From a virus: a DNA stretch of 53,410 nucleotides. This document shows positions 30,469 to 49,994 of the stretch, in pieces. A program made the translations under genes and the position numbers. Every line of letters starts with the position of its first letter. Within the stretch, counting starts at the first letter, position 1. The notes under the pieces are model-generated. The model saw nothing but the letters and a program-made list of their open reading frames with translations, was not told the origin of the DNA and did not search any database. The stretch spans positions 1-53,410 of the IMG/VR virus record IMGVR_UViG_3300033182_000800. One strand, given 5' to 3'.

Positions 30469-30476
30469 TATTTATA
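30469..30476 (-). promoter_or_regulatory. T4 late-type promoter for the gp48 block
   Basis: The minus strand reads TATAAATA here, the exact T4 late -10 element recognised by gp55 with coactivator gp33. It lies 30 nt before the gp48 ATG and in the divergent gap between gp48 and gp4. A gp33 homologue is encoded in this window. Confidence 0.75.
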
Positions 30477-30925
30477 TGGCATACAAAGGTAAGTTCAGAC
30501 CAAAGAACATAAGCAAGTATAAAGGTGATCCATCTGATATAATATACCGCTCCTCATGGGAATTGAGGTTCATGAAATATCTTGATACCACTCCATCCAT
30601 ACTGAAATGGTCTAGTGAAGAGATTATCATACCATATCTATCACCAATAGATGGCAAAAGACATAGATACTTTCCAGATTTCTGGGTGAGAGTAAAAACA
30701 TCTGGTGGTGAAATCAAAGAAAGTCTCATAGAAGTTAAACCCAAAGCACAAACTCAACCCCCAAAAGGTGGTCCTCCCAAAGATGCCAGGAAAAGAAGAA
30801 GATACATTTCTGAAGTAAAAACATGGGGAGTCAATGAAGCCAAATGGAAAGCTGCCACTGCATACTGTGGTAGAAGAAACTGGACTTTTAAAATCCTAAC
30901 CGAGAAGGATCTGACTAAATATTAA
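30476..30925 (+). CDS. 4: head completion nuclease gp4
   Basis: A 149-residue homologue of T4 gp4 (gp50/65, 150 aa), needed to finish packaged heads before tail joining. It shows the PD-(D/E)XK-like nuclease layout: YRSSWELRFMKYLDTTP, then HRYFPDFWVRV (P-D) and SLIEVKPKAQ (E-x-K), then KWKAATAYCGRRNWTFKILTE. The start codon overlaps the divergent late promoter. It opens the plus-strand tail-assembly cluster. No good Shine-Dalgarno is visible. Confidence 0.93.
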   Translation: MAYKGKFRPKNISKYKGDPSDIIYRSSWELRFMKYLDTTPSILKWSSEEIIIPYLSPIDGKRHRYFPDFWVRVKTSGGEIKESLIEVKPKAQTQPPKGGPPKDARKRRRYISEVKTWGVNEAKWKAATAYCGRRNWTFKILTEKDLTKY

Positions 30926-33018: not shown

Positions 33019-34763
33019 TGGCAGCAACATTAGATGATGTAGTTAAGGCAATACGAGAAGGAAACGAAGGAACAGCAACTCAACAAGCCAAAGCTGCAGA
33101 ACAAGCAAATGAACAAAAAGTCTACGACAATCAAGTTCTAGCTACTCTCTCTTCCATATCTGATGCAATCAAGGGAATAACTCCATTTAAAATTCAAGAG
33201 ACTGATAGTAAAGGATTCCTTGGCAAAATTCTCACTTCATTTGGACTTATTGGTGCAGGAGCTGCTGGTCTTGCGGTAGGATTGGTTGGTGGATGGACTG
33301 TATTTGTTGCAGATTTAGTTAGGGATCTTGGTAAATTACTTATGAAATTTATTAATGCAATCCCTAGACCTCAATTTGTTGATGATATAATTGCAGCATT
33401 TAAAGCAGATGGAAAGGTAGGACAGTTTTTCACAAAAATCAAAAACTTTTTTGTAGGAGAAACAGGATTTATAAAAAGAATTAGCACGGTTGTAGATACT
33501 GTAGTAGATTCAGTCAAAGGTTTCACTGGTGGTATATTCACAAAAATATCTAATTTTTTTGTAGGTGAAACTAGTGTATTCAAACGAATCGGAACAATTG
33601 TAGACACTACAGTAGATGCAGTCAAAGGATTTACTGGTGGTATATTCACAAAAATTGGAAACTTTTTTAGTAAGTCTAGTGTATTATCAAAAATAGGGAC
33701 CACTGTAGATGGAGTGATGGATACTTTAAAAGCATTTGGTGGTGGAGTATTTGATGGTATAAAGAATGTATTTACAAAATTAAAATCTATAGGTTCTACT
33801 TTAATGTCACCATTTGAAGCTATAAGTGGTGTATTTGGAAATGTAACTGATAAAGGTGGTGGGATACTGGATACTATCATGAAGTTTATCAATCCATTCA
33901 AAGGTGTATTTCAAACTTTTGCAAGGATAGGATCTAAACTTGCAGCACCACTCTCTATCATCATGGGTCTATTTGATGCAGGATTTGAAACAAAAGATGC
34001 AGTAGAAAAGAGTGAGGGAGTATTTGCAACCCTCCTTAATGGACTTATCGGAGCAATGGGTGGATTTATAGATGGAGCTGTAATTCAGGTGGCAGATTTT
34101 CTAAAGGATGGAATTGCAACAGTATTGGGATTTTTTGGATTTGAAGAGACTGAAAAGGCAATGAAAGATATTTCTTTTTCCAAGAGTTTTAATGAGATGC
34201 TAGATAAAGTCTATGCATTTGTAAATGATTTGTTTGACATAGATTTTGATGCTTTGGCAAAGTCTATAATGCCAGAAAGTATCTATAACTTCTTATTTGG
34301 AGATAAGGCAGAACAAATTGCTGATTTAGAAGCCAAGATTAAAGAAGCTAGAGAAAGTGGGCCAGAAGAAAATCTCTTTAGTGCAGATGAAACTCAGGAA
34401 GAATTTAATAAGAGAATTGCAGGTTTAACTGCAGAGTTGGAAAAATTAAAAGGAGTAAAAGGATTCAAAACTGGTGGTCTTGTGACAGGAAGTGGACTTG
34501 CAATGTTACATGGATCACAAAGTGCACCAGAATTAGTATTAGATAATCAAGCTACTGAAGTCTTTCTCAAAGCAGCAAACTTACTTACGAATTCACAAGC
34601 ATTGGAAAGAATGAGAGGTGGTTCACCAGTTGTAATCAATAATGTAAACAATAGCCAAAATAACCCAGTAATATCAAATCAAGCTACAACTATGAAAGTA
34701 CCTGATGCAGTACGTTCTGGTGAACCATCATTTGGAATGGCTGCTAGAGCCATGATGAATTAA
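33018..34763 (+). CDS. 29: tail tape measure protein (gp29-like)
   Basis: A 581-residue protein, close to T4 gp29 (590 aa) in length, which fits a T4-length tail. It has an N-terminal helix, a hydrophobic segment at residues ~70-105 (GLIGAGAAGLAVGLVGGWTVFVADLV), three 36-residue tandem repeats (residues ~138-250) and a second hydrophobic region (~300-380). A helical C-terminal part with coiled-coil (IADLEAKIKEARESG, ELEKLKG) follows. The motif FKTGGLVTGSGLAMLHGSQSAPELVLDNQATE near the end is a frequent tape-measure C-terminal signature. The stop overlaps tail to tail with the gp32 stop. Confidence 0.88.
   Translation: MAATLDDVVKAIREGNEGTATQQAKAAEQANEQKVYDNQVLATLSSISDAIKGITPFKIQETDSKGFLGKILTSFGLIGAGAAGLAVGLVGGWTVFVADLVRDLGKLLMKFINAIPRPQFVDDIIAAFKADGKVGQFFTKIKNFFVGETGFIKRISTVVDTVVDSVKGFTGGIFTKISNFFVGETSVFKRIGTIVDTTVDAVKGFTGGIFTKIGNFFSKSSVLSKIGTTVDGVMDTLKAFGGGVFDGIKNVFTKLKSIGSTLMSPFEAISGVFGNVTDKGGGILDTIMKFINPFKGVFQTFARIGSKLAAPLSIIMGLFDAGFETKDAVEKSEGVFATLLNGLIGAMGGFIDGAVIQVADFLKDGIATVLGFFGFEETEKAMKDISFSKSFNEMLDKVYAFVNDLFDIDFDALAKSIMPESIYNFLFGDKAEQIADLEAKIKEARESGPEENLFSADETQEEFNKRIAGLTAELEKLKGVKGFKTGGLVTGSGLAMLHGSQSAPELVLDNQATEVFLKAANLLTNSQALERMRGGSPVVINNVNNSQNNPVISNQATTMKVPDAVRSGEPSFGMAARAMMN
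33429..33752 (+). repeat. 108-bp tandem repeats inside the tape measure gene
   Basis: The segment beginning ttcacaaaaat recurs at 33429, 33537 and 33645, exactly 108 bp (36 codons) apart. The encoded unit is FTKI-NFF-VGET-FKRI-T-VDT-VD-VKGFTGGI; the third copy is diverged in its second half. Because tape-measure length sets tail length, copy number here could tune tail length. Confidence 0.9.
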
Positions 34764-35351
34764 GCAGTCTCTGCCAACTTTTGGAAATAGTCTAAAGACT
34801 CATCATCTTCATCCTGTTCCGCTGGTTTTGTTGGTGGTGTATATGCCTCACCCCCATCAAATGGAACCTCTTGTTGTTTAGGTTTTGACATCTCACCCAA
34901 ACCAAGTACACGATCCAACTTCTCTTTCAGTTCGTCATAAGACTTGAACTTGTCGGCACTCACCAACTCTTTTAGAGAAAACTGACTGTTCCAGATTTCT
35001 TCCATCCGTTCATCATCCTCAAGAAGAGCAGATGGTGTATCAAACTCTGACTTATCATAGTTTGAATATCCTTCAACTTTACGAATCTTCATCTTGAAGT
35101 TCGCACCTTCCCAGAGATCAAATGGATTTACTGGTGATTCATCCTCAAACTCAGGATTCATGAGGTCATTAATCTTATCAAAGATTTTCTTACCATAACG
35201 GAAGAGTTTTACCTGTCCCTCATTTTGAGGATTGGCAGGATCTTTGACCACATATACATTTGAGATATAGGTCAGACGCCGTTTCTGTTTTCGTGCAATC
35301 TCTTTGTTGGCCTCAATACCTGAATTCCAAAGGACCGAGTTGTGTTCAGAT
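34760..35351 (-). CDS. 32: gp32 single-stranded DNA-binding protein, exon 2
   Basis: This exon encodes the C-terminal 197 codons of gp32 after intron removal. It begins with the last base of a split Val codon and reads SEHNSVLWNSG, then KEIARKQKRRLTYISNVYVVKDPANPQNEGQVKLFRYGKKIFDKI, aligning with T4 gp32 (LVVKDPAAPENEGKVF...YRFGKKIWDKI). PWEGANF corresponds to FDLWEGANF here. It ends with an acidic tail (EQDEDDESLDYF), the region that contacts replication partners in T4. The Cys ligands of T4 gp32 zinc are absent, as in marine relatives. The stop shares TTAA with the convergent tape-measure stop. Confidence 0.95.
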
Positions 35352-35439
35352 CGTTTATGTTCAAATAGAGTCGTTAATTCTATTCCGTTCTCTTATGAAC
35401 TGCTTCTACTTTCATAGAAGACCAGACTATATCTTTTTC

Positions 35440-36408
35440 TCAAAGAGAAAGATTGCATTTCGGATCACTTGATCCTACTCCATTTAGGATAGTCGTTGAA
35501 CCTTCACCATACCATATTGGGTTAGGTGCTTGGCTGCTGATTGCCCAATCTAATAATTTTTTAGAACTGTCAAGTTTGCGATTTCTCGCTTCGTGTTTTG
35601 ATATTACCAATAAGCATATAGAATAACCCGAATCAATTGATGCTTGACACTTTTTCATAACAACATCATAATGTTGTTTAAGTGTATATTCAGATTTGAC
35701 CTCAATCAATAAATTTTGGTTGTGTAAGTAAAAATCAGGAAAATATATTCTTTTTTTATTATTATGAAAATATCCTACTGTAGGCACTTCACTTTTACCA
35801 ATTTTTATATCATTTTTACCTAAATGATAATCATTGATTAACGATTCTAATGCAATAGGTTCGTATCCTTGCAAAGTAACAATTGTATCAAAAAATGGAT
35901 ATGGTTTATAACCAGAACGTCCACCATAGTTACCTAATCTATTTTTTGTTTCCATCATTTTCATAAGAGCATTTTTTTTAGTCTCTTCTGATCTTGACAG
36001 ATAAGCAGTTTTAGAATGGTTGGAATAATATTCTGTTTCGGTTATTCCCATATTGACACATTTTTGTTGAATAGTTTTTTTTCGCTTTTCAACATTATTA
36101 CTCCATTTTTTTGTATTACGATAATGTTTGAACGAATCAAGTGCTTCTGGATTATTAATAAATCTATTTTTTACTGATAATCTATGGGCATCTGATTTGC
36201 AAGCACACACATCACTACAATAATCCCGATACGAAAAAGATTTATACGTAGTTTCTTTACCACAATAACAAATACCTTCATTCGGAGATTTATAAAATTT
36301 ATCATAATATTCCTTAGAAGTCATTTTTAATGTTCTTAAATGATTTAAGAAACCTCTCATAGTATTAAATCTTTTGTTTGTTACTTTACATTGTTTCCAT
36401 ATTTCCAT
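35440..36408 (-). CDS. intron-encoded homing endonuclease (PD-(D/E)XK type)
   Basis: A 322-residue protein encoded wholly in the gp32 intron. Residues 1-70 form an N-terminal DNA-binding-like region (VTNKRFNTMRGFLNHLRTLKMTSKEYYDKFY, then C47/C49 and C64/C68/C70, a possible zinc site) often fused to phage homing nucleases. Residues 222-240 (YFPDFYLHNQNLLIEVKSE) give the catalytic P224-D225 ... E236-x-K238 of the Vsr/EDxHD-like PD-(D/E)XK group. AAAGG lies 7 nt before ATG 36408. Its last ~20 codons are intron core sequence. It presumably cleaves intron-less gene 32 to spread the intron. Confidence 0.9.
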   Translation of the reverse strand: MEIWKQCKVTNKRFNTMRGFLNHLRTLKMTSKEYYDKFYKSPNEGICYCGKETTYKSFSYRDYCSDVCACKSDAHRLSVKNRFINNPEALDSFKHYRNTKKWSNNVEKRKKTIQQKCVNMGITETEYYSNHSKTAYLSRSEETKKNALMKMMETKNRLGNYGGRSGYKPYPFFDTIVTLQGYEPIALESLINDYHLGKNDIKIGKSEVPTVGYFHNNKKRIYFPDFYLHNQNLLIEVKSEYTLKQHYDVVMKKCQASIDSGYSICLLVISKHEARNRKLDSSKKLLDWAISSQAPNPIWYGEGSTTILNGVGSSDPKCNLSL

Positions 36409-36424
36409 AAATACCTTTCAATAG

Positions 36425-36432
36425 TATTTATA
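36425..36432 (-). promoter_or_regulatory. late-type promoter inside the intron
   Basis: The minus strand reads TATAAATA, the T4 late -10 element, 16 nt before the endonuclease ATG and with the AAAGG site between them. Late expression of an intron-encoded nuclease matches the arrangement known for I-TevI in the T4 td intron. Confidence 0.65.
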
Positions 36433-36539
36433 AAATATCAGAATTTAACACTCTACTTTGTAGTATTATTAGCTTAAGGGGTTTCCAGCAATTAACAATC
36501 AGTTTCAGTGAATAATCGCTTATTCAAGCCGCTAAATCA

Positions 36540-36817
36540 ACGGGATCTTTTTGTCCAAGAGTGGTCAGAGAGTTCTCAATGTACCAGCCACCTGGCCCCT
36601 GAAACCCATGATTCCAGATACGTGCCCATGGCAGATCTTCTCCATTCGGAGCCGGAAGAAAACGAATGATGGCATAACCATTACCTGACTTGTCCAACTC
36701 TGGACGCCAGTAACGATCATCTGTATCACCGAAGTTTGAATTTGAGATTTTTTCAGTCTCTTTGATAAGAGTTGAAAGGTTGGTCTTACTACGTTTTTTC
36801 ATTTCTGCAAACGACAT
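36540..36817 (-). CDS. 32: gp32 single-stranded DNA-binding protein, exon 1
   Basis: This exon encodes the first 92 codons plus two bases of the Val codon. It starts MSFAEMKKRSKTNL and contains the conserved LDKSGNGYAIIRFLPAPN (T4: LDNAGNGQAVIRFLPSKN) and WNHGFQGPGGWYIENS (T4: NHGFKKNGKWYIETCS). The start at 36817 is chosen because AAGGAG lies 6 nt upstream; an upstream TTG adds seven implausible residues. Without splicing the frame would stop after DLAA. gp32 coats ssDNA and coordinates replication and recombination. Confidence 0.95.
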
Positions 36818-36860
36818 ATAACTCCTTTTTATGTGCAATGTATTAACAACGTATAAAAGT

Positions 36861-37121: not shown

Positions 37122-37511
37122 TTATTCCATATTATTTTTAGATTTATAATCACTAATTGCTGCCTTGATTGCATCTTCTGCCAATACGGAACAATGAATC
37201 TTGACAGGTGGTAAAGAAAGTTCTTCCACAATATCTACATTGCTGAGTTCTTCTGCTTCATTTATAGACTTACCTCTAACCCAATCAGTAGCAAGAGAAC
37301 TGGCAGCAATTGCACTACCACATCCAAATGTCTTGAATTTGGCATCTGCAATGACACCAGTTTCATCGTCAACCTTTATTTGTAGTTTCATTACATCTCC
37401 ACACGCAGGAGCGCCGACAAGCCCTGTCCCTACATCTGAAGAATCTTTATCTAATGTCCCAACATTCCTTGGGTTATTAAAGTGGTCCACCACCTTTTCG
37501 CTATATGCCAT
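37122..37511 (-). CDS. iscU: IscU-type iron-sulfur cluster scaffold protein
   Basis: A 129-residue full-length IscU. All functional residues are present: C37 and D39 in GAPACGDVMKLQ, C64 in FKTFGCGSAIA, C107 in KIHCSVLAEDA, and the chaperone-binding LPPVK motif (100-104). The length and spacing match E. coli IscU (128 aa) almost exactly, so it should be active as a scaffold that receives sulfur from IscS and hands clusters on through HscA. ATG 37511 is preferred because GAGGTGAG lies upstream; a GTG two codons earlier is less likely. It sits in a replication/transcription operon just before gp33 and is probably an acquired host gene. Confidence 0.95.
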   Translation of the reverse strand: MAYSEKVVDHFNNPRNVGTLDKDSSDVGTGLVGAPACGDVMKLQIKVDDETGVIADAKFKTFGCGSAIAASSLATDWVRGKSINEAEELSNVDIVEELSLPPVKIHCSVLAEDAIKAAISDYKSKNNME

Positions 37512-37522
37512 ACGCACTCACC

Positions 37523-37906: not shown

Positions 37907-38330
37907 CTACTTTTTCCTTATCGTTACCATTTTCATGTAACAGTTGAGATTCTTTATCCTCAGAATCTTCTTTATCTTTGAACCAATAATCAGTAGACTT
38001 AGCTAGAACTGCAACGTATGCACCAACAAGGATGTTGACCAAATCTCTATGTCCATCTTTTAAGTCACCAAGAAAAAGAAGATAGATGAGTATTAAGAAT
38101 GTAAATGCAACTATGAGGGAAAGAATAAATCTTGCCCACCAGTTGAGTTTTTTCCTATGTTCTATCCTCTCATATTTTAGAGCACCAACTGGATCTTTTT
38201 CCCAGAGGGTTTCTTCTGCATGGTCAATTAACTCAACAGGAGTATTGACCTTATCATCTGCAGCTCGTTCTTCTTTTATTTCACTTTCTTTCTTTTCTGT
38301 TTTGAGTCTTTTTGGGATACGAATAGCCAT
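37899..38330 (-). CDS. two-span membrane protein, holin-like candidate
   Basis: A 143-residue protein with a charged N-terminus (~75 residues), a strong membrane span at ~76-99 (FILSLIVAFTFLILIYLLFLG), a second weaker one at ~108-128 (LVNILVGAYVAVLAKSTDYWF) and a very charged C-terminus (KDKEDSEDKESQ). This shape fits small phage holins and other inner-membrane proteins. It overlaps the start region of the coiled-coil gene and the end of the secreted nuclease gene. A lysis role is only inferred from topology; the endolysin gene lies 4 kb away. Confidence 0.8.
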   Translation of the reverse strand: MAIRIPKRLKTEKKESEIKEERAADDKVNTPVELIDHAEETLWEKDPVGALKYERIEHRKKLNWWARFILSLIVAFTFLILIYLLFLGDLKDGHRDLVNILVGAYVAVLAKSTDYWFKDKEDSEDKESQLLHENGNDKEKVDV

Positions 38331-39169
38331 CAGTCAGACTCCACGGCCTTCAGTAGGGCTGATGCAACACCGACTTTACTTTGGTCTTTCTCTGTATCAA
38401 CAAATTTCTTGAGAAGTCCCTTTAACGTAATAGTGTCATCAACTGTCCAACCCTCTGCTTTGCCTACTACGGTGCCCCATAATCCAAGAACTTCATCACA
38501 ATCTCTTTTGTAAGTATATGGGTCTTTACCTTTTTTACTATCGTATTCGTCTGTATTCCAAACGAAAAAACATTCTCTGTAATTCTTAGCAGTGAACACC
38601 TTTCCAAATGCTGAAGGAACTTGTAATCCACTCTTTCCTATAATCTTTGGTCTATCGTTGAAGTAAACCAAAGTCAACATTTCTAAAACACCATGTTCTA
38701 CTGCCTTCTCACGTTCTAATTTTTCAAGTGAAACAAACTTGTATCTGTTTGCACGTTTTGTTTGAGGAACGATGTTGGCCATACTATATGTAGCCTTCAA
38801 AGTTTTCTTGGACCAATCATGAGATGCATCTGATGCACCTAAATGTCCTCTATCATAACCAGTATTGTCGTAATCATCATTTGTTGTTGCCACACTTTTG
38901 TCAAGTCTTTTGTCTGTGAAAAAGGGTGGTCTTGGATCTATATTCAGAAGATCAACTGTCTCTTTTGTGACTTCTGTATAGACTGCAATCGGAGACTTTC
39001 TTTCAAAGTCATAACAAATTGTAAAGGTATCAGTAAGTATCTGATCACAAGCCTTTTTAGTGAAATGTTTCTTAATATCTGCTGTTTTTGATAAACTCAC
39101 ATCACCATGAGTCTGTCCATAAGCAATAGTTCCAACCAATAAAAATAAAGTGATAATAATTTTTCTCAT
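38330..39169 (-). CDS. secreted DNA/RNA non-specific endonuclease (NUC1 family)
   Basis: A 279-residue protein with a signal peptide (MRKIIITLFLLVGTIAYGQ, cleavage likely after residue ~18). The catalytic motif is DRGHLGASDAS (H109 as general base), followed by MANIVPQTKRANRYKF in which N141 is the expected Mg ligand; both are diagnostic of the beta-beta-alpha-metal nucleases (Serratia nuclease/NucA/EndoG). The export signal places it in the periplasm or outside the cell. Possible roles are degrading DNA of competing phages or host DNA at lysis for nucleotide reuse. It is in the same operon as a membrane protein and IscU. Confidence 0.93.
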   Translation of the reverse strand: MRKIIITLFLLVGTIAYGQTHGDVSLSKTADIKKHFTKKACDQILTDTFTICYDFERKSPIAVYTEVTKETVDLLNIDPRPPFFTDKRLDKSVATTNDDYDNTGYDRGHLGASDASHDWSKKTLKATYSMANIVPQTKRANRYKFVSLEKLEREKAVEHGVLEMLTLVYFNDRPKIIGKSGLQVPSAFGKVFTAKNYRECFFVWNTDEYDSKKGKDPYTYKRDCDEVLGLWGTVVGKAEGWTVDDTITLKGLLKKFVDTEKDQSKVGVASALLKAVESD

Positions 39170-39180
39170 ATCACCAGCTC

Positions 39181-39411
39181 CTATGTTATATAATTAAACC
39201 TCCACTCATCGTCTTGCCATGAAACTCTACATAAACCTGCACTGTAAGGTAGTCTGAAATCTTTATACTTTACTCCATTCTCCTTTTCATGCAATTCTCT
39301 GATAAGATAATAAGGAGGCATATTTTCGCGGACTACATCTCTCTCAAATCTTTTTCTAATCTCATTCATTTGAGATGATCCTGTTGGATCATTTTGTAAA
39401 CCACCTGACAT
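39181..39411 (-). CDS. small conserved-looking protein downstream of tmRNA
   Basis: A 76-residue protein beginning MSGGLQNDPTGSSQMNEIRKRFERDVV and ending DDEWRFNYIT. Start 39411 is chosen because GAAAGGATAT precedes it; the frame stays open upstream but that part overlaps the tmRNA 3' hairpin. It is hydrophilic, with no membrane segment and no recognised domain. Its start lies ~15 nt after the tmRNA coding piece, so it is probably expressed from the same primary transcript. Confidence 0.75.
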   Translation of the reverse strand: MSGGLQNDPTGSSQMNEIRKRFERDVVRENMPPYYLIRELHEKENGVKYKDFRLPYSAGLCRVSWQDDEWRFNYIT

Positions 39412-39469
39412 ATATCCTTTCTTTGTGGGAGTCTTCTGTTCCCAAGCGACTCCCAAACTCGGCTATCAG

Positions 39470-39523
39470 TTACGCAGCGAGTGCATAATATTCTGATGCA
39501 GAAATATAATCGTTATTATTTGC
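39470..39523 (-). other. tmRNA proteolysis-tag reading frame
   Basis: Resume codon GCA (39523-39521) opens a 17-codon frame ending in TAA (39472-39470), encoding ANNNDYISASEYYALAA. The terminal ALAA is the universal recognition signal for ClpXP and related proteases. The -ATAATC- before GCA matches the -ATAGTC- that positions the frame in E. coli tmRNA. Confidence 0.93.
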
Positions 39524-39605
39524 GATTATGTTTAGTTGATGTTGGTCATCACCCTATTTGTTCTCACTACTACTCTCACTACCAATCGAATCCATAACGC
39601 CCCCA

Positions 39606-39692
39606 TCATAATAACACTGCTTCCATAACCCAGATAAATCCTGCAGTTCCTATCAATATAACAACTGTAAAAAATATTAGGTCACCATCCAT
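39606..39692 (-). CDS. 28-aa membrane peptide encoded in the tmRNA intervening segment
   Basis: ATG 39692 is preceded by GGAG with 7 nt spacing and opens a 28-codon frame ending in TGA (39608-39606). It starts MDGDLIFFTVVILIGTAG and is hydrophobic from residue 5 to the end, a single predicted membrane span. It fills most of the 108-nt segment that is cut out during maturation of the permuted tmRNA. Both the Shine-Dalgarno and the composition argue against chance. Function is unknown; small holin-like, antiholin-like or toxin-like peptides have this form. Confidence 0.55.
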   Translation of the reverse strand: MDGDLIFFTVVILIGTAGFIWVMEAVLL

Positions 39693-39777
39693 AAAATGCT
39701 CCAATGCTGTTATGGTGGAGGCGGCCGGAGTTGAACCGGCGTCTTGCTAGTTACCCTTATAGGTCAACGAACAAATA

Positions 39778-40428
39778 CTAGGAATATTTAGTAATCACTT
39801 GTTTCAAAGGTTCTATCCATCTGTCCTTTGTTTCTTTGAACAACAAAGGTTTATCATTTTCAACTGCCATGATAATTACAATATCGTTTATAGAGATTCC
39901 AGTAAGTTCTTCATAAGCATGTGCATAGAAAGCACCTTGCATGAAATACCCATGGCACATCTCCCATGTCTTTTTCTTTCTGGAAGTCTTGTAGTCTATG
40001 ACCGATAGTTTCTCATCAAACTCACCTATCAAGTCTGTTCTTCCAGCAACACCCAAGTCATCAGAATACAATGCACCCTCAACCACATGAATGTTATCTA
40101 TCCTATCCAAAAGTGGCACAATAGAATTAAACATATCTATTGCATCTGGTAAAACACCTTCTAATATTCTCTCTTGGTTCTGGATATACGACTCACAGAT
40201 ATTATGTAAGCGGGTTCCTCTACTGCTCGCCTGTCTACTAATCTTGTTGGCCTCTGCCTCGCCAACCCTTCTTCGCCATTCAATAATTGATTGTTTTGAA
40301 AGGTTACCGAGTAACGAGGTAATACTAACGTACTTATTGCCTTCAGGAGTTGCATAATATCTCTTTCCGTTGATGTTTTCAGTTTTTAAATCTTTAAGGT
40401 CATTACCCACATGATTAAAAGTTTTCAT
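39778..40428 (-). CDS. RecB/MGME1-like PD-(D/E)XK exonuclease
   Basis: A 216-residue protein with the RecB-family nuclease layout: H75 in SRGTRLHNICESYI, E118, D132 in GVAGRTDLIGEF, D145-x-K147 in LSVIDYKTSRKKK, and Q164 in YFMQGAFYAHAYEEL. This set (H-D-DxK-Q) is the catalytic core shared by RecB, Cas4 and the mitochondrial MGME1 exonuclease, and T4-like marine phages often carry such proteins. It likely processes DNA ends during replication, recombination or host DNA degradation. It ends just where the tmRNA precursor begins and follows the zinc-ribbon gene by 2 nt. Confidence 0.9.
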   Translation of the reverse strand: MKTFNHVGNDLKDLKTENINGKRYYATPEGNKYVSITSLLGNLSKQSIIEWRRRVGEAEANKISRQASSRGTRLHNICESYIQNQERILEGVLPDAIDMFNSIVPLLDRIDNIHVVEGALYSDDLGVAGRTDLIGEFDEKLSVIDYKTSRKKKTWEMCHGYFMQGAFYAHAYEELTGISINDIVIIMAVENDKPLLFKETKDRWIEPLKQVITKYS

Positions 40429-46117: not shown

Positions 46118-46417
46118 TTAGGCTACTTTATACATTGTATAAGTCCAAGTTAATTCCTCACCCGCAACAACATCACGTTTCGTGCGAAGATACCAACCTG
46201 CACCATTCTCTAATGAATCCCAAAACTTTTCACAAGTAGGGTCATCAGAATGATTTCCAAAAGCACCCAAGGGAGTTCGCATCAATTCACCATTGAATTC
46301 AAAATGAATCATCCCCAAAGACATACCCTTTGGAATATCAGTTTTAGCAAACAAACCCAGACCATGAATGCCCGAGTCCTTTATTGTGACCACATCTGGT
46401 AAAGGTTTGTATGACAT
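46118..46417 (-). CDS. minimal SET-domain lysine methyltransferase
   Basis: A 99-residue protein consisting of little more than a SET domain. It has SGIHGLGLFAKTDIPKGMSLG (the GxG SAM-loop and first strands; G17, G19, G21), FGNHSDDP with N55-H56-S57 (the NH(S/C) pseudoknot motif) and AGEELTWTYTMY with E88 and Y93 (catalytic Tyr region). All core motifs are present, so it should bind SAM and methylate a protein lysine. It is even shorter than the viral vSET of chlorella virus (119 aa). Its start overlaps the glycosyltransferase end by 37 nt. The target is unknown. Confidence 0.87.
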   Translation of the reverse strand: MSYKPLPDVVTIKDSGIHGLGLFAKTDIPKGMSLGMIHFEFNGELMRTPLGAFGNHSDDPTCEKFWDSLENGAGWYLRTKRDVVAGEELTWTYTMYKVA

Positions 46418-49454: not shown

Positions 49455-49994
49455 CTAGTCTTTATTGGAATGTTTACACTTATTTCCGTGCCATCTGGAA
49501 TACATTTGAGGACTGCACGATTTTCCACAAACTTCACATAAAACTTTTTTTCTGTTTTTGGCAGCCAGTGACAATTTGGCTCTGGTTTCTGCATTTGGAA
49601 TTAGTTTACCAACTTGTCTACCAGCTTCTCTACAAGATTCTCTACCTTCTTCAGAGAGTTTCCATCTACCACTAGCTACAGCTTCTTTCTGTTTTTTACT
49701 CCAATTATCTTTTGCCCATTGAGGCATTTTCTTTCCTAATCTTGGATGTTTATCACTCATATTTCTTCTCCTACATGCTTCCCTTGCAATTTCTCTGCGA
49801 ATTCTTTCGTGAGTCCAATCTCTGCAGAGAGATTTCCAAGCAATGTAATCCCATTTATTTTGATATTTTTCCCACAACAAACGATGAGCTTCTGCATGTT
49901 CTTCAATAGATAACTCAACAATATTATCTGGACTGTCCGTACCACCAGCATGTCTTGGTATGATGTGATGTTTGTGTGTTAGATATTTTTCCAT
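49455..49994 (-). CDS. free-standing HNH homing endonuclease
   Basis: A 179-residue protein. The HNH motif is at residues 7-40 (KHHIIPRHAGGTDSPDNIVELSIEEHAEAHRLLW: H9-H10, N24, H33). The middle (DKHPRLGKKMPQWAKDNWSKKQKEAVASGRWKLSEEGRESCREAGRQ) contains NUMOD3-like DNA-binding repeats, and the end has C-x2-C and CKH (possible zinc site). AAAGGAGG before the ATG is the strongest ribosome site in the window. Surrounding genes overlap each other, whereas this one has a 42-nt upstream gap, so it looks inserted. Confidence 0.92.
   Translation of the reverse strand: MEKYLTHKHHIIPRHAGGTDSPDNIVELSIEEHAEAHRLLWEKYQNKWDYIAWKSLCRDWTHERIRREIAREACRRRNMSDKHPRLGKKMPQWAKDNWSKKQKEAVASGRWKLSEEGRESCREAGRQVGKLIPNAETRAKLSLAAKNRKKVLCEVCGKSCSPQMYSRWHGNKCKHSNKD

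Follow-up and report, generated by a model that had tools for sequence, protein, structure and literature searches.

A group I intron with a predicted PD-(D/E)XK-type homing endonuclease in gene 32 of a T4-like phage

Gene 32 of a T4-like myovirus lies on the minus strand of a single IMG/VR virus record (the window, by which we mean the whole stretch of 53,410 bases that was analysed) and is interrupted by 1188 nt. This raises the question of what has entered the gene for the single-stranded-DNA-binding protein gp32, and how an intact gp32 could still be made. Very probably gene 32 has been colonised by a mobile group I intron that encodes a homing endonuclease (HE), and this intron would excise from the RNA, express its endonuclease late and spread by homing.

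Joining the two exons in silico yields an open gp32 of 289 residues that is collinear with the intronless gp32 of cyanophages; it aligns with those of Synechococcus phage S-T4, AG-345-E15 and others, in the first two without a gap at the junction. The DNA match to S-T4 covers 1805 nt of the query in 617 nt of the record, a difference of exactly 1188, and the S-T4 peptide around the equivalent position reads LTTLGQKDPV/SEYNS (here and below, the slash marks the splice position). The predicted ligated-exon junction of the window gene is GATCCCGT/ATCTGAA. A preliminary description of this DNA had set the boundaries at 36539 and 35352, and both are exact by these comparisons; its statement that removing 1188 nt restores the gp32 frame is borne out by the open joined exons and their alignment to intronless gp32. 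The U-G splice-site pair and terminal G that it described are likewise present, as exon CCGU faces a GCGG internal guide sequence and the intron ends in G. The segment of gene 32 from 36539 to 35352 is a group I intron, presumably spliced out in vivo. Coordinates of all elements are collected in Table 1.

Table 1. Elements of the interrupted gene 32, listed in the direction of transcription (window coordinates).
Feature	Position	Strand	Basis and remarks
Shine-Dalgarno AAGGAG of gp32	36822-36827		upstream of exon 1
gp32 exon 1	36540-36817	-	codons 1-92 plus two bases of Val93; PF08804 8e-07, phrog_224 3e-38
5' splice site	36534-36543	-	CCGU (exon) / UGAUUU (intron); holds the P1 strand contributed by the exon
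Group I intron, 1188 nt	35352-36539	-	Rfam match, frame restoration, helices, homologues
Internal guide sequence GCGG	36529-36532	-	P1 3' strand, U.G at splice site; GCGG conserved in 13 introns
In-frame TGA	36524-36526	-	4 codons into the intron; would stop ribosomes on unspliced exon 1
P2, GNRA loop (GCGA)	36510-36525	-	covariation, 71/72 cells
P3 5' strand GAUUGU	36495-36500	-	60/60 cells, 4 two-sided covarying pairs
P4 5' strand and P5 5' strand (UUGCUGGAAACCCC)	36478-36491	-	core alignment
P5a 5' strand	36456-36464	-	30/30 cells
Candidate T4-type late promoter TATAAATA of the endonuclease ORF	36425-36432	-	sequence motif
Putative hairpin masking ribosome-binding site and start codon of the ORF	36404-36434	-	MFE -12.5, z -2.8
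Homing endonuclease ORF, 322 aa	35440-36408	-	PF24308 2e-17; N-terminal Cys cluster, helical middle, predicted C-terminal PD-(D/E)XK nuclease
P5b hairpin, GAAA loop, within the ORF	35578-35589	-	44/44 cells; all four pairs covary two-sided
P5a 3' strand	35566-35574	-	covariation
P5 3' strand and P4 3' strand (GGGCAAUCAGCAGCC)	35532-35546	-	Rfam and core alignment
P6 with CCUAA...UAUGG	35505-35528	-	40/40 cells; GAAA-tetraloop-receptor likeness by eye
P7 5' strand	35489-35496	-	Rfam match
P7.1 and P7.2 hairpins	35462-35488	-	20/20 and 50/50 cells
P3 3' strand GCAAUC	35451-35456	-	covariation; coordinates counted by hand
P8	35436-35450	-	50/50 cells
P7 3' strand (guanosine-binding helix)	35425-35432	-	Rfam match
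P9, GAAA loop	35403-35420	-	69/70 cells
3' end UGAACAUAAACG	35352-35363	-	terminal G at 35352; ending common to several homologues
gp32 exon 2	34760-35351	-	starts at last base of Val93; PF08804 4e-26, phrog_224 1e-55

The covariance model search suggested in the preliminary description places RF00028 (Intron_gpI) on the minus strand at 35403-35635 with 54.8 bits (E 3e-11; Rfam cut-off 50), and the homologous intron L003 (L numbers are our labels for loci) reaches 59.4 bits with the group I model. Since the model is split by the ORF, the window score is barely over the cut-off: the match covers the 3' half only, and the 5' half precedes the 322-codon ORF in the P5 loop. The 5' core half as aligned by Rfam (in the 35580s) was rejected, since the 5' strands of P3 and P4 precede the ORF and P3 covaries there with its 3' strand.

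For the core alignment, ten introns were used with the ORF taken out and helix strands assigned by hand. Across P2, P3, P5, P5a, P5b, P6, P7.1, P7.2, P8 and P9, 464 of 466 cells are paired. Each of these ten scored helices has pairs changed on both sides, and re-dealing partner strands between sequences leaves clearly fewer pairs; with hand-chosen strands and related sequences such shuffle counts favour the structure without being probabilities, while the covariation is direct evidence. Being nearly invariant, P1, P4 and P7 were left unscored, and they neither support nor oppose the fold. The helices listed in the preliminary description (P1, P2, P3, P7, P8, P9) can all be drawn, but that list omits P4, P5, P6, P7.1 and P7.2.

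Among the aligned introns, L2 is a GNRA loop and L9 is GAAA or TAAA. P6 of several members contains CCUAA...UAUGG, an element resembling a GAAA-tetraloop receptor that faces the covarying GAAA hairpin P5b, and the two may form a tertiary contact. Over 150 nt, the intron 3' end shares approximately 72% identity with the T4-type nrdB intron, which, together with P7.1 and P7.2, suggests subgroup IA (possibly IA2-like). The ORF occupies P5, and roughly its final 50 codons double as catalytic core (P4-P8); the window ORF runs through P5b, P4, P6 and P7 as far as P8, and those of L005 and L171 extend into P9.

Homologues were identified in IMG/VR by an endonuclease search and then by a DNA pattern for P1-P3, with copies removed. 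Thirteen distinct gp32 introns sit at one codon (the window, L001, L003, L004, L005, L010, L120, L131, L143, L145, L156, L158 and L171), and the insertion is recurrent in environmental phages, with twelve further alleles besides that of the window. Three of them are incomplete on their contigs (L004, L145 and L010, the contig of which turns into unrelated sequence downstream). All ten complete introns possess the CCGU/ 5' site, GCGG and a final G, and their removal restores the gp32 frame; for L005, the splice choices first tried gave out-of-frame or odd peptides and were replaced by the 3' site TGAACATAACG/TAGGA, which restores the frame. Lengths are 1186-1205 nt with a full HE (window, L001, L003, L005, L156, L158, L171), 507 and 694 nt with HE remnants and 409 nt without HE, the decayed versions comprising an internal deletion (L143), a C-terminal remnant (L120) and complete absence (L131). 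In every complete gp32 intron an in-frame stop lies 1-6 codons past the 5' splice site (the L003 value comes from an ambiguous frame), and this early stop would keep gp32-translating ribosomes out of the ribozyme core.

These alleles also bear on readings that dispense with an intron, namely that an endonuclease gene splits gene 32 into two proteins, that the insert is intein-like and in frame, or that the record is misassembled. Free-standing endonucleases can indeed split phage genes without an intron, as in Aeh1 nrdA (PMC2988022), and exon 2 holds an internal GTG ORF start. Such readings are nevertheless highly improbable given that the group I helices covary across 10 introns, that independent contigs carry the same insert in the same codon, several of them in 2-5 copies, and that the HE-free 409-nt inserts keep the core and restore the gp32 frame; an intein or in-frame insertion is excluded by the stop four codons into the intron. 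The Rfam match, the homologous introns and the ORF agree on a group I intron with a homing endonuclease ORF in gene 32, as had been proposed at the outset.

The same CCGU/...UAGCGG start was also observed in other phage genes, at L148, L169 and L178 (thymidylate synthase/ThyA-like exon), L121, L125, L166 and L180, with host genes judged by eye from the exon peptides. Most non-gp32 matches to the P1 pattern are chance-like and lie in unrelated proteins; only L121, L125, L148/L169/L178, L166, L180 and L140 look like introns.

Alignment to the PDB places the intron in the Val codon matching the zinc knuckle of T4 gp32, C87-P-V-C90 in T4 numbering. The gp32 proteins of L131 and L158 are zinc-type, with a spliced peptide ...CPV/C..., i.e. 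the intron splits CPV/C and is inserted in the codon between zinc-ligand cysteines. In intronless relatives the proline codon before the site is CCA or CCT in 69 of 82 and CCC in 9 of 82. CCCGT occurs in all five alleles with the complete stretch that were given or found through the HE (window, L001, L003, L004, L010), and the exon site of L005 is CCGT; alleles from the pattern search, which requires CCGTT and cannot serve for judging this bias, were set aside. P1 needs the C of CCC, so that either co-conversion brought the C or selection keeps it, and the excess in HE-found alleles is as P1 pairing or co-conversion would predict.

Intronless gene 32 alleles, which the preliminary description had recommended looking for, are present in relatives in the same gp32 frame. 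Continuous gp32 was found in 80 of the 80 IMG/VR genes nearest the window gp32. GenBank phages contributed 2415 records with gp32 in 2417 places, and in 2390 of these records a single place spans at least 80% of the query; no more than two GenBank records could carry a split so large that gp32 falls into two separate places, a bound that concerns wide splits, with smaller gaps possible outside the matches listed. A quick tree of exon-2 proteins (89 sequences), in which long branches leave some positions unsure, requires at least five changes of the intron label, two of them forced by well-supported branches. The window gp32 nests with the intronless L040-L042 (96% SH-aLRT), the nearest being 87% identical. 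The patchy intron, the empty alleles, a distribution off the gp32 tree and the series of HE decay fit a homing cycle in which the intron is gained, decays and is lost, as read from sequence comparison.

A regulatory role, in which splicing efficiency sets the amount of gp32 and links this ssDNA-binding protein to growth state, would draw on the same alleles. Truncation at the intron would make the gp32 level fully dependent on splicing, and introns lacking an HE have kept an intact core (L131, L120), but all 80 nearest genes do without the intron and homing alone accounts for both the patchy distribution and the HE linkage; we regard a regulatory role as very unlikely.

The 322-residue protein matches PF24308 (DUF7487) with 64.3 bits (gathering cut-off 27), alongside a weak TnsA match in Pfam. 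E183, P224-D225 and E236-x-K238 are invariant in 11 sequences; the nuclease motif E-V-K or E-I-K, read by eye, is invariant, and the HD pair of EDxHD is absent. A fold search with the full-length HE returned no confident match, for which reason the nuclease domain was folded alone, giving a model at pLDDT 92. Its best PDB neighbour is 3r3p, the catalytic domain of I-Bth0305I (prob 0.95-0.96; E 0.02, a structural match not significant on its own), with Vsr and other PD-(D/E)XK nucleases ranking below, and a PDB sequence search with the HE profile gave no match. By model and motif the HE (DUF7487) appears to be of the PD-(D/E)XK/Vsr-fold type, not HNH or GIY-YIG, and would be expected to cleave DNA. 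No close relative was found in GenBank phages, the best being a Vibrio phage Va1 protein of ~32% identity. Derivation of the nuclease from the TnsA-like gene of the window (30476-30925) was rejected, a 23-residue motif match being insufficient.

Free-standing relatives of the HE lie at loci L011, L016 and L019. From these it seems that a roaming nuclease gene was taken up by the intron, which matches the idea of collaborative homing (PMC2988022). Two further free-standing genes (L019 3989-4936 and L156 12148-12906) combine an HE-like N-terminus with a TnsA-like nuclease similar to that encoded at 30476-30925 in the window, and the HE-like N-terminal module seems to have been shuffled between nucleases.

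The part of the ORF that overlaps the core is its best conserved part. This would be expected if the window phage had kept splicing and lost mobility, the HE being inactive or retained only since its 3' end is ribozyme core, and degenerate or HE-less versions at the same site (L143, L120, L131) show such loss to be common. In the ORF body outside the overlap, however, every pair shows the most change at the third codon position and the least at the second (0.45-0.53 vs 0.18-0.32), as under protein-level selection; the window ORF is intact over all its codons with every motif residue, and its promoter and ribosome-binding site (RBS) are present in the intron. Lost mobility in the window phage is accordingly unlikely, and we retain a mobile intron with a functional endonuclease as the preferred reading.

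TATAAA was found in 10 of the 12 introns with an ORF start, and the exact TATAAATA in 8 of 12. Most introns are predicted to form a hairpin over the RBS or the start codon, its sequence differing in each; the energies are individually modest, and the L158 hairpin is no better than shuffles. For I-TevI, a late promoter and an RBS hairpin delay translation until late transcripts appear, and this delay protects splicing, since the ORF runs into the core (PMC2988022). The TATAAATA promoter and hairpin appear to mirror this scheme, with late timing as the probable outcome.

From the exons, boundaries, helices, motifs and alleles, all established by sequence and comparison, we infer the following course of splicing, timing, cleavage and homing. 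Ribosomes on unspliced RNA would halt four codons into the intron. The RNA would fold (P1-P9, with the ORF in P5), excise itself and join the codon GU/A, giving normal gp32. Transcription from the late internal promoter would then produce a short transcript lacking the RBS-masking arm, and only from this would the endonuclease be translated. As the 3' end of the ORF is the core, such timing would keep the core of early mRNA free of ribosomes. In a co-infecting phage the enzyme would cut the gene-32 site that lacks the intron, and recombination would copy the intron in together with nearby exon sequence.

T4 gp32 binds and represses its own mRNA. The recombination step with which homing ends depends on gp32 (PMC2988022), and for these two reasons a coupling between intron and gp32 can be proposed, in which the amount of gp32 affects both folding and splicing of the intron RNA and splicing sets how much gp32 is available for homing, with PD-(D/E)XK/DUF7487 enzymes founding a recognised class of phage intron endonucleases. 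We consider this combined proposal a long shot; if true, the feedback loop would couple a selfish element to the repair protein that it uses.

The T4 nrdB, td and nrdD (sunY) introns, with I-TevIII, I-TevI and I-TevII, are of the same ribozyme class as the gp32 intron, which differs from them in its host gene, in having the ORF in the P5 loop and in an endonuclease that appears to be PD-(D/E)XK/Vsr-fold and not GIY-YIG or HNH. As with I-TevI (PMC2988022), the 3' end of the ORF overlaps the core and is combined with an internal late promoter and a predicted RBS-masking hairpin. An autoregulatory operator similar to the homing site, as in I-TevI, was looked for near the late promoter and not found: the best 20-nt match is 11, and 484 of 500 shuffles are as good. 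I-Bth0305I (EDxHD, Vsr-like fold; Bacillus) is a homing enzyme too and the best structural neighbour, but it has the HD of EDxHD where the gp32-intron enzyme has E...PD...EVK with Lys, and significant PDB sequence similarity is absent. I-Ssp6803I, also from a group I intron, shares the catalytic motif class and carrier type; it is bacterial (PMC3943268; PMC6083498), whereas our enzyme is carried by a phage and has a cluster of Cys residues at its N-terminus and a helical middle, and the PDB search with the HE profile gave no match to I-Ssp6803I. The layout of the HE recurs in free-standing DUF7487 (PF24308)/PHROG 15137 endonucleases (Vibrio phage Va1; L011, L016, L019), which sit between genes and not within an intron, and Pfam had assigned this family no function.

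The preliminary description regarded gene 32 as a fresh site. No published gp32 intron was found in the open-access literature searched, which agrees with that view as far as introns are concerned, but gene 32 is already the target of T4 SegG (PMC2988022 Table 1), a free-standing GIY-YIG homing endonuclease inserted beside gene 32 and outside any intron. Reviews assign HNH, GIY-YIG and EDxHD endonucleases to phages and PD-(D/E)XK to bacteria (PMC3943268; PMC6083498), and one Vsr-type group has been reported in Bastillevirinae introns (PMC11878797). The gp32 intron is of an ordinary kind, its place is new by the open literature that was searched, and its nuclease is unusual for phage introns. 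The gene of an ssDNA-binding protein, itself part of the homing machinery, joins those hit by mobile introns, and 13 alleles ranging from intact HE through decay to loss, amid empty alleles, open the homing cycle to comparison in uncultured phages. DUF7487 gains a likely function, with a nuclease type listed in reviews as bacterial rather than phage (PMC3943268).

Several other minus-strand genes of the window were noted. A NifU-like Fe-S scaffold gene lies two genes upstream of gene 32 (37122-37517; PF01592, 5.8e-54); others encode a DNA/RNA non-specific endonuclease with an apparent signal peptide (38330-39169; PF01223), a small SET-domain protein (46118-46417; PF00856) and a free-standing HNH-type protein, possibly a second homing endonuclease (49455-49994; PF01844, slightly below cut-off). 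A permuted (two-piece) tmRNA gene is found at 39379-39805 (RF04321, 96.5 bits; ARAGORN tag ANNNDYISASEYYALAA), and tmRNA also occurs in the intron-bearing relatives L001 and L003.
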